Below are positions 7,399 to 12,541 of a stretch of 64,000 bases of DNA, piece by piece; position 1 is the first letter of the stretch, and the number at the start of each line of letters is the position of its first letter. Source of the stretch: an uncultured Spirochaetota bacterium (lineage in GTDB: Bacteria; Spirochaetota; UBA4802; UBA5550); NCBI GenBank assembly GCA_937872225.1, contig CALMRZ010000015.1, positions 1 to 64,000 on the forward strand. Direction: 5' to 3'. Position numbers and translations under genes: made by a program. Under the pieces are notes generated by a model, which saw nothing but the letters and a program-made list of their open reading frames with translations, was not told the DNA's origin and made no database searches.

Positions 7399-8619
7399 AT
7401 GAAAAAAATTACGGTCATTCTGGCCCTGGCAACGGCAATCAGCGCCTGCTTCCGCTGCAGCTCAATCCAGGATACCCATGAAGCCTACAGCGATATCACC
7501 GCTGCTGTTGTCAACAACGATACCGAGGAAGTGCGCAACTTCCTCTCCCGCGGTTTCAACACGAACCACCGGTTTATGGACGGATGGACCCTTCTGCACA
7601 TTGCGGCGCGTTGGGACACCTACCGCGTCGTGACCCGCTGCTTTGACGACAGCAACGGCAAGCGGACCGGCATCTTCACCGTCACGCAGAAAACCGAGGA
7701 CGAATCACTACGGGCCCGGGAAATGGTTTCCCTTTTACTGGACCGGGGCGGCGATGCAAACATGAAAGCCGACGACGGCAGCACCCCGCTTCACATCGTC
7801 CTGGCGTCCCTCCAGTACACGTCGCCGGACATACCTTCCATACCGCCGGTGGAGGGAAGGGTCTCTTCGCGCTTCGGATGGCGCGGATCGCCCTTTGACA
7901 ACAACAGCGATTATCACCGCGCCCTCGACATCGCGGCCAAAAACGGGACCCCCGTTCGCGCCACGGCCAACGGTGTTGTCGCAATGACCGGCGTCAGCAG
8001 CACCCTGGGCAATTACATAATCATACAGCACCGGAACGGGTACCAGTCGATATACGGCCACTGCCATCTCTTCGCGGTCAAGAAGAACTCCCCGGTCAGG
8101 CGTGGCGCCATCATCGGCTATGTCGGCATGACCGGCTCCGCCAGCGGCGACCACTGCCACTACGAGGTCCGCCTGAACGGGGCCCCGGTCAATCCGATCG
8201 AATTCGTCAACGGCAAGATAATAGGGGAGACCCAGCACGCCATAGCCATGGGTGTCGTTGAGCAACTCCTCTCGAAAAAGATACAGGTCGACGCCCGCAC
8301 CAACGACGGGCGTACGCCCCTCATCGAGGCAGCTGCAAAAAGCTCCGCCCTATCCCGGCTCCTGATCGACCAAGGCGCCGACATCAACGCCGCTGACGAA
8401 AACGGCATCACCCCCCTCCACATGGCGGCCGCTGGTGATGCCGAACTGGTCCGCGTTCTGCTTCGGAAGGGGGCCCGGGTCAATCCCCGCACCAGGTCGT
8501 CCGTCTGCGCCATAGCCGGCACGCTCTTCGCCCAGGGGACAACGCCCCTCGCGGTGGCATTAAAATACGGGAACAGCGCTACAGCCGAACTATTAAAGGG
8601 CAGCGGTGCCGTGGAATGA
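7399..8619 (+). CDS. Lipoprotein: M23 peptidase inside ankyrin repeats
   Basis: A 406-residue predicted lipoprotein with an unusual domain order. Residues 1-17 form a signal peptide with lipobox ISAC (Cys17). Residues about 30-137 are ankyrin-type repeats (DGWTLLHIAA, DGSTPLHIV). Residues about 150-267 are a LytM/M23 zinc endopeptidase domain with the ligands and catalytic histidines in place: His173 and Asp177 (HRALD), His221, and HCH at 252-254. Residues about 285-400 return to ankyrin repeats (DGRTPLIEAA, NGITPLHMAA). M23 enzymes cut peptidoglycan cross-links or related peptides; ankyrin repeats bind proteins. The protein is therefore probably a periplasmic, membrane-anchored murein hydrolase whose activity or partner is set by the repeats. 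The substrate is inferred. Confidence 0.88.
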   Translation: MKKITVILALATAISACFRCSSIQDTHEAYSDITAAVVNNDTEEVRNFLSRGFNTNHRFMDGWTLLHIAARWDTYRVVTRCFDDSNGKRTGIFTVTQKTEDESLRAREMVSLLLDRGGDANMKADDGSTPLHIVLASLQYTSPDIPSIPPVEGRVSSRFGWRGSPFDNNSDYHRALDIAAKNGTPVRATANGVVAMTGVSSTLGNYIIIQHRNGYQSIYGHCHLFAVKKNSPVRRGAIIGYVGMTGSASGDHCHYEVRLNGAPVNPIEFVNGKIIGETQHAIAMGVVEQLLSKKIQVDARTNDGRTPLIEAAAKSSALSRLLIDQGADINAADENGITPLHMAAAGDAELVRVLLRKGARVNPRTRSSVCAIAGTLFAQGTTPLAVALKYGNSATAELLKGSGAVE

Positions 8620-8706: not shown

Positions 8707-10371
8707 ATGAAAAAAATTATCCTCGCGGGCATTAACGCGCGCTATACCCATTCTTGCCTTGCCCTCTACTGCCTTAAATCCGCCCTGAGCGGTATAGACG
8801 CTGAGGCGGTCGTCCGCGAGTTTTCCATAAACCAGCCTGTTGAAGATATCGCGTCGCGTCTCGCCGCCGAAGGCGCCGATGTCATGGCCCTTTCAGTGTA
8901 CATCTGGAATTCGGAGCCGGTACGGAAGCTGCTTCATCTCCTCCATGAGCGGTGCGCCGGCTCCCTGCTGGTCCTGGGCGGTCCTGAAGTGAGCTACAAT
9001 CCCGGGTCATGGCTGGAGGCCTTTCCCTTCATAGATTTTATTGTCACCGGCCACGGGGAGGAGGGCTTCAGGACCCTGGCGGAAAAAGGATTCAGGGGCG
9101 GTGAAAAAGTCATCGCCATTCCCAACCCCCCCTTTGCCGAAATGCCGGCTCCCTACAGCGAAGAAGACCTGGTGGGCCTTAAGCATAAATACATCTACTA
9201 TGAATCGAGCAGGGGGTGCCCTTACCGGTGCACCTACTGCCTTTCATCCCGCTCTGACCAGAACATAGACCTCAAGGGCCCTGACACCGTGAAAAGGGAG
9301 CTGGATTTCATCCTACGGGGGGGGCCTTCCCTGGTCAAGTTCGTCGACCGGACCTTCAACGCGTCCCGCGGACATGGCCGCGCCATCTGGCGTCACCTTC
9401 TGAAAAACTACCGGAACGGCCCGACAACCTTTCACTTCGAGATACATCCCCTCTGCCTTGACGAGGAGGATTTCGAAATCCTGTCACTCTGCCCGAAGGG
9501 GCTGTTCCAGTTCGAGATCGGGATCCAGTCCACCAACAGGGAGACCCTGGCGGCGGTAAAGCGCTCGGGCGACTGGGAAAAAGAACGGGCCGTCCTGGAG
9601 CGACTCATCGCCCTCGGGACCATCCGGATACATCTTGACCTGATTGCCGGTCTTCCCCATGAGGACATGGTCTCCTTCAGGCGTTCTTTTAACGATCTCT
9701 ACGGTCTCCGGCCGGACCACCTCCAGGTGGGATTTCTCAAGATATTGCCCGGCACCGAAATGATGGATGCCGCCGGCCGATTCGGGATGTCCTATTCACG
9801 GCGGGCGCCGTACCAGGTCAGCGAAACCCAATGGCTCAACGGGAAAGAGCTGGGACTCCTTGAACGGATCTCGCGTCTCGTTGACCGCCTGCACAACACC
9901 CGGCGTTTCGGCACGACCCTGGCAGCCCTTGCCGGGCGCCACGGATCCTCCTTTGACCTGTATCGCGAGCTGGCCTTATACGCTGATGATTCAAACGCGC
10001 AGACAACCAGAAGCTGGGAATCCTGCGCCCTCTTTCTCATGGCTTACACAGCGTCGCGGTTTCCCGGCGAGAAAAGTTTTTTTCTGGACGCGATGCGGTG
10101 GGACTGGTGTGCTGTCACGAGGACGCCCTATTATCCGGATATCATCAGGCCGGAAAGCTCCGCGGAAACGAAGAAGAAGGGCACGGCTTTTTTCATGAAC
10201 CATGAAGAAGGCGGCGGCATTTTGTACCGGGGCTTCCGTTTCGGTATTTCAGACCTGAAGAGATCACTCTTCTTTGAGGCGGAATCAGACGCATTCAGGA
10301 TGGACCATATGGCTGGGAATACCCGCGCCATTTTTCTGCCCGATAAAAAGGTAATCATGTATACCGGATAG
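8707..10371 (+). CDS. B12-binding radical SAM protein, DUF4080 type
   Basis: A 554-residue protein. Residues 1-130 look like a cobalamin-binding Rossmann domain, with VLGGPEVSYNP typical of these enzymes. The radical SAM core starts at CPYRCTYC (Cys171, Cys175, Cys178), which would bind a 4Fe-4S cluster and cleave S-adenosylmethionine; FQFEIGIQSTN and HLDLIAGLPHED are further core motifs. The C-terminal region (about 400-554) matches my memory of DUF4080 proteins. Most members have no known substrate; methylation or ring rearrangement is typical of the wider class. It follows the peptidase-ankyrin gene by 87 bp and has only a weak ribosome-binding site. Reaction unknown. Confidence 0.87.
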   Translation: MKKIILAGINARYTHSCLALYCLKSALSGIDAEAVVREFSINQPVEDIASRLAAEGADVMALSVYIWNSEPVRKLLHLLHERCAGSLLVLGGPEVSYNPGSWLEAFPFIDFIVTGHGEEGFRTLAEKGFRGGEKVIAIPNPPFAEMPAPYSEEDLVGLKHKYIYYESSRGCPYRCTYCLSSRSDQNIDLKGPDTVKRELDFILRGGPSLVKFVDRTFNASRGHGRAIWRHLLKNYRNGPTTFHFEIHPLCLDEEDFEILSLCPKGLFQFEIGIQSTNRETLAAVKRSGDWEKERAVLERLIALGTIRIHLDLIAGLPHEDMVSFRRSFNDLYGLRPDHLQVGFLKILPGTEMMDAAGRFGMSYSRRAPYQVSETQWLNGKELGLLERISRLVDRLHNTRRFGTTLAALAGRHGSSFDLYRELALYADDSNAQTTRSWESCALFLMAYTASRFPGEKSFFLDAMRWDWCAVTRTPYYPDIIRPESSAETKKKGTAFFMNHEEGGGILYRGFRFGISDLKRSLFFEAESDAFRMDHMAGNTRAIFLPDKKVIMYTG

Positions 10372-10381
10372 TAATTATTTG

Positions 10382-10456
10382 CCCCCTAAATCCCCCGGTG
10401 GGGGACTTTGCCACGATTGACAGCAAAAGGCCCTTTCCGGCGGTTTGGGGGGGTGC
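10382..10456. repeat. MITE-like inverted repeat, copy 1
   Basis: An element of about 75 bp whose left arm (CCCCCTAAATCCCCCGG then GGGGGACTTT) is inversely repeated in its right arm (AAAGGCCC ... CCGGCGG ... GGGGGG). It closely matches a second copy at 14735-14805. It sits between the radical SAM gene and the methyltransferase gene and overlaps any start of the latter upstream of 10456. Confidence 0.7.
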
Positions 10457-10479
10457 CGCAGGACACCATAGCACGGTTG

Positions 10480-11640
10480 ATGCGATTGAAAAAAAAAGAA
10501 CGTCAGCAGATAAACAGCCTTATTGAACAATTCCGCGGCGAAGGAACAGCCCCGGCCTGCCCCCACTTCGGCAGCTGCGGCGGCTGTCTCTTCCAGGACA
10601 TGGCCTATGACGACCAGCTATCGCTGAAAAAACGGATGGTCAACGACACCCTCCGGGGCATTGCCGCCGTTGATTCCGTCCACCCCTCGACCCCGTACCG
10701 CTACCGGAGCCGGATGGACATGGTGACCGCCTTCGGCTGCATTGGCCTGCGCCGGCGCGGCAGCTTCCGCTCCGTTGTGGACGTGACGGGCTGCAGCATC
10801 ATGCAGGAGAAATCCGACAGCCTGTACCGGACTGTCCGCCCTCTTCTGGAAGCGGTGGAGGGATACGATTATCTCCGCCACCAGGGATATCTCCGGTACG
10901 CGGTACTCAGGGAGTCCCGCTTCACCGGCCAGGTGATGCTCAACTTCGTCGTCGCGGAAAAGGAAAACAGGCTATCGGCCGTGATTGACCGGGTGATCGC
11001 CATGGCCGATTCGGTGTCCATTCTCCACTACGGCGGCCTTGCCGACCTGAGCTACGGCGACATCATGGAAACGGTAAAGGGGGGTCACATCGAGGAGGAC
11101 TTCGACGGCATCCGGTACCGCATCACTCCCAATTCATTTTTTCAGTCCAATGCCGAAATCGCGGTGCTGATGTATGAAAAGATCCGCGGCCACGCCCGGG
11201 GCAGCGTCCTGGACCTCTGCGCCGGGGTGGGGAGCATTTCCCTGTTCGTCGCCGGCGCTGCCGACCGGGTGACCGGCGTCGAGCTTAATTCCGAGGCCGT
11301 GGAAACGGCCCGCGTCAACAGGGAGATCAACGGCATCACCAACGTGGAGTTCGTCTGCACTGACGCGGCCGCGTTCCTGATGACTGCCGGGGATTATGAA
11401 ACCATTATCATGGACCCTCCGCGGGCCGGAATGCAGAAGGGCGTGATGGAGACCATCGACCGCATGACTGCGGGCACCATCGTGTACATGTCATGCAACC
11501 CGAAGACATTCCGGGACGATGTTGCGGTTCTTCGCAATTACACGGTGGAATCGGTGGAGGCCTTTGACATGTTCCCGCAGACGCCCCACGTGGAACTGCT
11601 CGCCGTGCTGAAGCCCCGTCGGGGGCAGGTCAGATCTTGA
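10480..11640 (+). CDS. RNA m5-uridine methyltransferase, TrmA/RlmD family
   Basis: A SAM-dependent RNA uracil-5-methyltransferase. From the chosen start it has about 386 residues. The Fe-S cluster ligands CPHFGSCGGC and a later VTGC are present. The SAM-binding motif is DLCAGVGS, the DPPR motif follows, and MSCNPKTF holds the catalytic cysteine. Most family members act on 23S rRNA. The usual N-terminal TRAM domain is missing, which recalls RlmC-like short forms, so the exact target uridine is uncertain. An ATG at 10408 is in frame but would translate the inverted repeat at 10382-10456, hence the later ATG. The 3' end overlaps the convergent M28 peptidase gene by 11 bp. Confidence 0.88.
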   Translation: MRLKKKERQQINSLIEQFRGEGTAPACPHFGSCGGCLFQDMAYDDQLSLKKRMVNDTLRGIAAVDSVHPSTPYRYRSRMDMVTAFGCIGLRRRGSFRSVVDVTGCSIMQEKSDSLYRTVRPLLEAVEGYDYLRHQGYLRYAVLRESRFTGQVMLNFVVAEKENRLSAVIDRVIAMADSVSILHYGGLADLSYGDIMETVKGGHIEEDFDGIRYRITPNSFFQSNAEIAVLMYEKIRGHARGSVLDLCAGVGSISLFVAGAADRVTGVELNSEAVETARVNREINGITNVEFVCTDAAAFLMTAGDYETIIMDPPRAGMQKGVMETIDRMTAGTIVYMSCNPKTFRDDVAVLRNYTVESVEAFDMFPQTPHVELLAVLKPRRGQVRS

Positions 11641-12541
11641 TCTCCATGTCGAGGAGGTCTTTCATCGTCACGTATGAATCGAAAACGGTGTTGGCCAGCA
11701 GCTTGAAATTGATCGTGTCGATGGTATCGTCCGATGAGTGATAGTTTTTATTGCGGTAAAATCCCGTGTCCGAAATCATGATGGCCCGGTAGCCGGACCT
11801 GATGAAGGACATGTGGTCGGAAAGGTCCATGCCGGGGATCGACGCCGGGCCTATGTATTCGAATATCTTCGACCGGGTCCGGGAGTTATATATCTTTTTC
11901 CAGAGATACACGAAGGGGGCGTTTGACGGAAGGGATATGACGCTTATGTAATTCCCGTATGTCGGGAACTCCTTTCTGTTATGGTTCAGGGGATAATCCT
12001 GGTGACAGGTTCTCCACCCGTACCCGAGCATTTCAAAACAGACCATCAATTCAATGTTCTCTTTGCGCTTCCTGCAGTTTCTGGCGTTAACCATGCTTCC
12101 CATCAGCTCCGTGGAAAAGAAGGGTGGCTCCTCGAGGGTAAAAGCGACAAAGCGCACGGTTTTTTTGAATGTGTGTCGGGACAGCAGGCGGAACAGTTCC
12201 AGGAGCCCGGCTATCCCCGAGGCATTGTCATCGGCGCCGGGCGTGTCCTCGATGGTGTCATAGTGGGCGCCGACAAGTATGATCGATTCGGGGGCCTCCG
12301 TTCCCCGTATCTCCGCGATGATGTTGGCCACGGTGTGATTGTCCGCCTCGTAAGTTTCCTCCCGGGGAACTGCGCCGTACCGCATGAAGTAATCGATGAT
12401 ATAGGCGCGCGTCCGCTCAAGGTTTTCGTATCTGCGTATGGTCCGCTCGCCGATATCAACCGACAGATGATGGATTATTTCCCTGGTATTTTTGAGAACG
12501 ACTTTTTTCTCACGGGAATCAGCGGATAATAGTGGTATCAT
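11630..12541 (-). CDS. M28 family zinc aminopeptidase
   Basis: A 303-residue metallopeptidase of family M28. The metal ligands and catalytic residues can be placed: His93 and Asp95 (AHYD), Asp104/Asp105 in ADDNASG, Glu137-Glu138 (TLEE), a DLSDH segment, and His268 in NYHSSDDT. Members remove N-terminal amino acids or act on related amides with two zinc ions. No signal peptide is visible, so it is probably cytoplasmic, whereas many M28 enzymes are secreted. It is convergent with the RNA methyltransferase gene and overlaps it by 11 bp. Substrate unknown; glutaminyl cyclase-like activity cannot be excluded. Confidence 0.85.
   Translation of the reverse strand: MIPLLSADSREKKVVLKNTREIIHHLSVDIGERTIRRYENLERTRAYIIDYFMRYGAVPREETYEADNHTVANIIAEIRGTEAPESIILVGAHYDTIEDTPGADDNASGIAGLLELFRLLSRHTFKKTVRFVAFTLEEPPFFSTELMGSMVNARNCRKRKENIELMVCFEMLGYGWRTCHQDYPLNHNRKEFPTYGNYISVISLPSNAPFVYLWKKIYNSRTRSKIFEYIGPASIPGMDLSDHMSFIRSGYRAIMISDTGFYRNKNYHSSDDTIDTINFKLLANTVFDSYVTMKDLLDMEIKI

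Follow-up and report, generated by a model that had tools for sequence, protein, structure and literature searches.

Introduction

Cell-wall hydrolases have to be restrained, and the means by which this is done in spirochaetes are little known. The M23/LytM endopeptidases ShyA, MepM, NMB0315, Csd1-Csd2 and DipM, which NCBIfam and PDB searches place among the top matches of the protein described here, share with it the M23 fold and an HxxxD...H...HxH zinc site. As accessory parts they carry LysM, a coiled coil or other domains, and their M23 domain is not known to lie inside a repeat. There is precedent for a periplasmic ankyrin protein that controls a peptidoglycan endopeptidase, and it is the closest parallel in the literature. 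In Bdellovibrio bacteriovorus, the periplasmic protein Bd3460 (a signal peptide and six ankyrin repeats) uses a helix-turn-helix face to block peptidoglycan endopeptidases sterically (PMC4686830). Since Bd3460 is a separate inhibitor of another enzyme class (serine endopeptidases) and has no enzyme domain of its own, this parallel shows feasibility only. Another point of comparison is found in DARPins and DARPin fusions (e.g. the designed repeat protein 6ndz and the LOV2-DARPin 7tbq), whose solenoid superposes on both ankyrin blocks of our protein as modelled but which, unlike it, are designed.

Here we analyse a gene in the window (the whole 64,000-nucleotide stretch of spirochaete DNA under study) whose product appears, from its sequence, to combine known domains in a new, nested order. 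The first-pass annotation of this DNA knew of no described protein with the ankyrin-M23-ankyrin order, and none was found in the largely open-access literature that we searched. The reading that we favour, with modest confidence, is that of an active, membrane-anchored endopeptidase whose ankyrin part serves as a platform for a partner. Sequence shows the architecture, ligand conservation, selection and domain origin, while a continuous solenoid and a helical junction are predicted by modelling; activity, membrane side, partner and control are what we infer.

Domain architecture and zinc site

The gene lies on the + strand, as do all features below, and runs from an ATG at 7399 to a stop codon ending at 8619 (406 aa), exactly where it had been annotated. 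From N- to C-terminus, its product consists of a signal peptide with a lipobox, an ankyrin block, a complete M23/LytM domain and another ankyrin block. Five full-length orthologues, 34-75% identical to the window protein, were found by genome searches: L002 (75%), L003 (55%, same locus as L031), L004 (39%, same locus as L032), L005 (38%) and L006 (34%), the L031 and L032 records being spirochaete metagenome assemblies. One alignment, which contained L056, was left out owing to a misplaced tail.

The signal peptide (7399..7458), delimited by the orthologue alignment and by the PROSITE lipobox rule applied by eye, contains a lipobox, ISAC, whose cysteine C17 (7447-7449) conforms to that rule. 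A second cysteine, C20 (7456-7458), is aligned in all orthologues and has, by eye, an acceptable lipobox in four of the five other proteins (VISC, SQGC, MTGC and FSGC); L002, with GIRC at this position, has none that is acceptable. The product had been called a lipoprotein, and a matching signal is seen by eye in five of the six proteins.

The two ankyrin blocks are unequally preserved. The N-terminal one (residues 24-127, 7468..7779) is degenerate in the window protein, where it is recognisable as ankyrin in the fold model, and plain in L006 (Ank_2 33-125, all 90 positions), so that its limits come from the alignment, the L006 Pfam match and AlphaFold. The C-terminal one (residues 292-406, 8272..8616, from Pfam and AlphaFold) is well conserved; Pfam Ank_2 covers residues 281-363 with 93.5 bits and other Ank families also pass their cut-offs. 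Each of the six full-length proteins passes the cut-off for ankyrin repeats (PF12796/PF00023). In the repeat before the cap, AlphaFold shows a long finger hairpin (residues 369-378, 8503-8532) in which I372 and G374 are invariant; the same genome encodes further ankyrin proteins with similar loops (L101 and L103).

Between these blocks lies the M23/LytM domain, which together with its entry linker SPDIPSIPPVEG occupies residues 142-272 (7822..8214). The Pfam Peptidase_M23 match spans residues 172-266 (102.5 bits against a cut-off of 28.7), and PF01551 is matched above its curated cut-off in 6/6 full-length proteins. The zinc ligands H173 and D177 (HRALD, 7915..7929), the catalytic H221 (YGHC, 8059..8061) and the HCH motif (8152..8160) with catalytic H252 and zinc ligand H254 are invariant in the alignment of all six. 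The zinc ligands had been described as intact, which is thus borne out in the window protein and its five relatives alike; the loss of ligands in relatives, against which the first-pass annotation had cautioned, is not seen in the genomes searched. The domain is most likely catalytically competent, i.e. a zinc peptidoglycan endopeptidase, as far as its sequence tells. Its NCBIfam scores all stay well under the curated cut-offs: among the named M23 equivalogs (ShyA, DipM, MepM, NlpD and EnvC) the best reaches 81.1 bits against 500, and EnvC 47.2 against 270. Cysteines 222 and 253, which sit beside the active-site histidines (in YGHC and HCH), are also invariant in 6/6 proteins.

The metal ligands and catalytic histidines bear on an alternative that we regard as unlikely, namely that the protein would not be catalytic itself but would activate or scaffold other hydrolases, like EnvC and NlpD. 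Binding is the usual service of ankyrin repeats and the LytM domain of EnvC (4bh5) is among the closest folds found by Foldseek (TM 0.86 in both models described below), which would suit such a role. However, EnvC-type activators are not known to keep the metal ligands, whereas here these and the catalytic histidines are all invariant, and selection constrains the M23 domain more strongly than the rest of the protein.

A peptidase domain predicted to nest in one ankyrin repeat

In every orthologue, helix 1 of an ankyrin repeat is found N-terminal of the M23 domain (TPLHxxLxSL in the window protein, TPLYSAIACL in L005), while C-terminal of it come a helix 2 and a finger as is usual for ankyrin repeats, and the insertion point is identical in the alignment of 6/6 proteins. 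In the window protein, helix 1 of the interrupted repeat is STPLHIVLASLQ (residues 128-139, 7780..7815). Structure prediction, which had been proposed as a check on the first-pass annotation, was carried out with AlphaFold for the window protein (pLDDT 85.6, pTM 0.79) and for the 39% identical L032 protein (pLDDT 83.2, pTM 0.76), two models that are partly dependent because most of their alignment rows are shared (three full-length proteins and five M23-only rows). Both give the same order of elements: helix 1 (130-136 in the window protein, 133-140 in L032), the M23 strands (154-264 and 157-267) and a continuous junction helix of about 20 residues (272-291, i.e. 8212..8271, and 275-295), which runs from the end of the M23 domain into helix 2 of the interrupted repeat. 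Both models place the M23 domain in the turn that links the two helices of a single ankyrin repeat.

Superpositions suggest the same. With Foldseek, the contiguous 190-residue DARPin 6ndz_B is matched across 376 (window) and 378 (L032) query columns, with TM 0.86 and 0.91 and rmsd 4.7 and 2.7, respectively. As 6ndz_B has only 190 residues, the other columns are gaps, so that both ankyrin blocks lie on one solenoid from which the peptidase is looped out, and the two blocks are predicted to form one continuous solenoid around the insert. Foldseek also matched StM23 9gy1, with TM 0.81 for the window protein and 0.85 for L032, and the LytM domain of EnvC. When the insert was excised and Pfam rescanned, the ankyrin score rose from 93.5 to 96.3 bits in the window protein and from 135.4 to 138.9 in L006, which weakly suggests a repeat spanning the junction; this gain being slight, it is the fold comparison that carries the claim. 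The ankyrin array had been said to be split by the peptidase, which is true in sequence (alignment and Pfam), while in space a single solenoid is predicted. The idea of a hydrolase placed in a protein-binding ring is not borne out: to judge by secondary structure and superpositions, the M23 domain loops away from the stack, which does not surround it.

How might such a protein work? In the mechanism that we propose, a periplasmic, membrane-anchored lipoprotein would carry a zinc M23 endopeptidase for peptidoglycan, the catalytic domain of a coiled-coil M23 protein (see below) having entered a single ankyrin repeat at its helix1-helix2 turn. The ends of the break are close together at this turn, so the solenoid could remain whole, and the junctions being a proline-rich linker and one continuous helix, the enzyme would be held semi-rigidly on it. 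The solenoid most likely binds an envelope partner, and would thereby place the enzyme or limit its action. A more daring variant, which we view as speculative, is a natural allosteric murein hydrolase, in which partner binding would bend the solenoid and the continuous helix would couple this to opening or closing of the cleft. An enzyme nested in an ankyrin helix-helix turn would be the natural counterpart of designs that protein engineers attempt, and would offer a compact system for asking whether solenoid bending gates an enzyme.

The solenoid could alternatively act in cis, covering the M23 cleft until a signal, proteolysis or a partner opens it, an explanation that we find possible but doubtful. 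M23 enzymes are often kept closed by their own N-terminal parts, both closed and open forms of ShyA are among the best structure matches of the two models, and the pTM values suggest that the domains are fairly fixed relative to each other. The helix-turn-helix face of Bd3460, an ankyrin surface that blocks a peptidoglycan endopeptidase, lends it some plausibility too. Against such self-inhibition, the DxPS linker is common to a paralogue without ankyrin repeats, i.e. it is no special plug.

Origin of the inserted domain

This paralogue is a coiled-coil M23 protein that is present in nearly every genome of the taxonomic order (here G000:C24, L084). Inspection by eye shows a single membrane helix and a coiled coil in it, ankyrin repeats being absent, with M23 at its C-terminus. 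It is about 48% identical over the whole insert, DxPS linker included. Homology spans residues 143-271 and stops at the C-terminus of the coiled-coil protein, and the insert therefore equals its whole C-terminal domain, which makes it the probable donor as judged from sequence. Trees unite five of the nested domains in one clade (100/100 when the tree was reduced). The long branch of L006 is placed with the coiled-coil paralogues instead, although monophyly of the six nested domains was not rejected (p-AU 0.276). The simplest reading of these trees would be a single insertion followed by losses, but there may instead have been two insertions or a later replacement.

The coiled-coil paralogue also has the two cysteines that flank the active-site histidines. 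The G000 genome has about 15 M23 genes. One of them (L092, G000:C79:5448-5732) encodes a second coiled-coil M23 protein with ICH instead of HxH, where the probable loss of one catalytic histidine makes it a candidate pseudoenzyme. Other M23 paralogues, L093 (G000:C17) and L095 (G000:C38), have altered or weak motifs, HxxxD being absent from L093.

Distribution, selection and gene neighbourhood

The ankyrin-M23-ankyrin layout is present in 6 of the 46 genomes of the order, and no further case came from 393 sampled genomes of the phylum (a sample that includes the order). The wide occurrence with a known role that the first-pass annotation had named as a caveat is thus not what is seen in the genomes searched, and occurrence in so few of them counts against a core cell-wall role. 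Other phyla were covered only by a contig scan that reaches close relatives and by plasmids, phages and viral contigs, and no record with the same layout was recognised among the latter three. M23 matches that align past the domain (G018, G019, G032, G068, G095 and a Sagittula plasmid) have other extensions, in which no ankyrin repeats were seen. In three phage records coverage exceeds 80%; these are Wolbachia ankyrin-type proteins, with an identity of 23-27%.

Between the window protein and L002, dN/dS is 0.089 for the M23 part, 0.18 for the N-terminal ankyrin block and 0.22 for the C-terminal one, values that are rough when L003 is used instead, its synonymous sites being nearly saturated. 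Constraint is strongest on the peptidase, which matches expectation for an enzyme, and these ratios indicate that both the M23 and the ankyrin parts are under purifying selection. Five orthologues at 34-75% identity, together with low dN/dS, argue that the layout is not due to chance. A neutral fusion whose parts would have no joint function is highly improbable in our opinion. It would sit well with a rare gene that has no conserved neighbourhood and an N-terminal ankyrin block that diverges fast, but not with one junction kept by all six proteins, at identities as low as 34%, with purifying selection on both parts, or with the absence of any ankyrin version without the M23 insert among 20 genomes of the family.

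The ankyrin-M23 gene is followed in G000 and G004, in conserved order, by genes for a B12-radical SAM protein, RlmD and an M28 peptidase (8707-12541 in the window). The radical SAM gene is elsewhere, or without the ankyrin-M23 gene, in G001, G002, G003 and G005, and the remaining orthologues sit among unrelated genes; elsewhere in the genus, the radical SAM gene has no ankyrin-M23 gene in front of it. With no conserved neighbour beyond G000/G004 in the loci examined, the gene is probably its own unit. Patchy occurrence, and ankyrin repeats being common among exported bacterial proteins, could also be read as signs of an exported lytic factor aimed at other bacteria rather than at the own wall, and the Bdellovibrio precedent does concern predation (PMC4686830). 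Yet a lipoprotein signal in 5/6 proteins, and the lack of any recognised secretion-system or immunity gene beside the ankyrin-M23 gene in the loci read, make this very unlikely.

As a separate observation, DUF3800-like and restriction-subunit-like genes lie just upstream of the G004 orthologue (L118, 9817-13105), and by eye these are a possible defence island.
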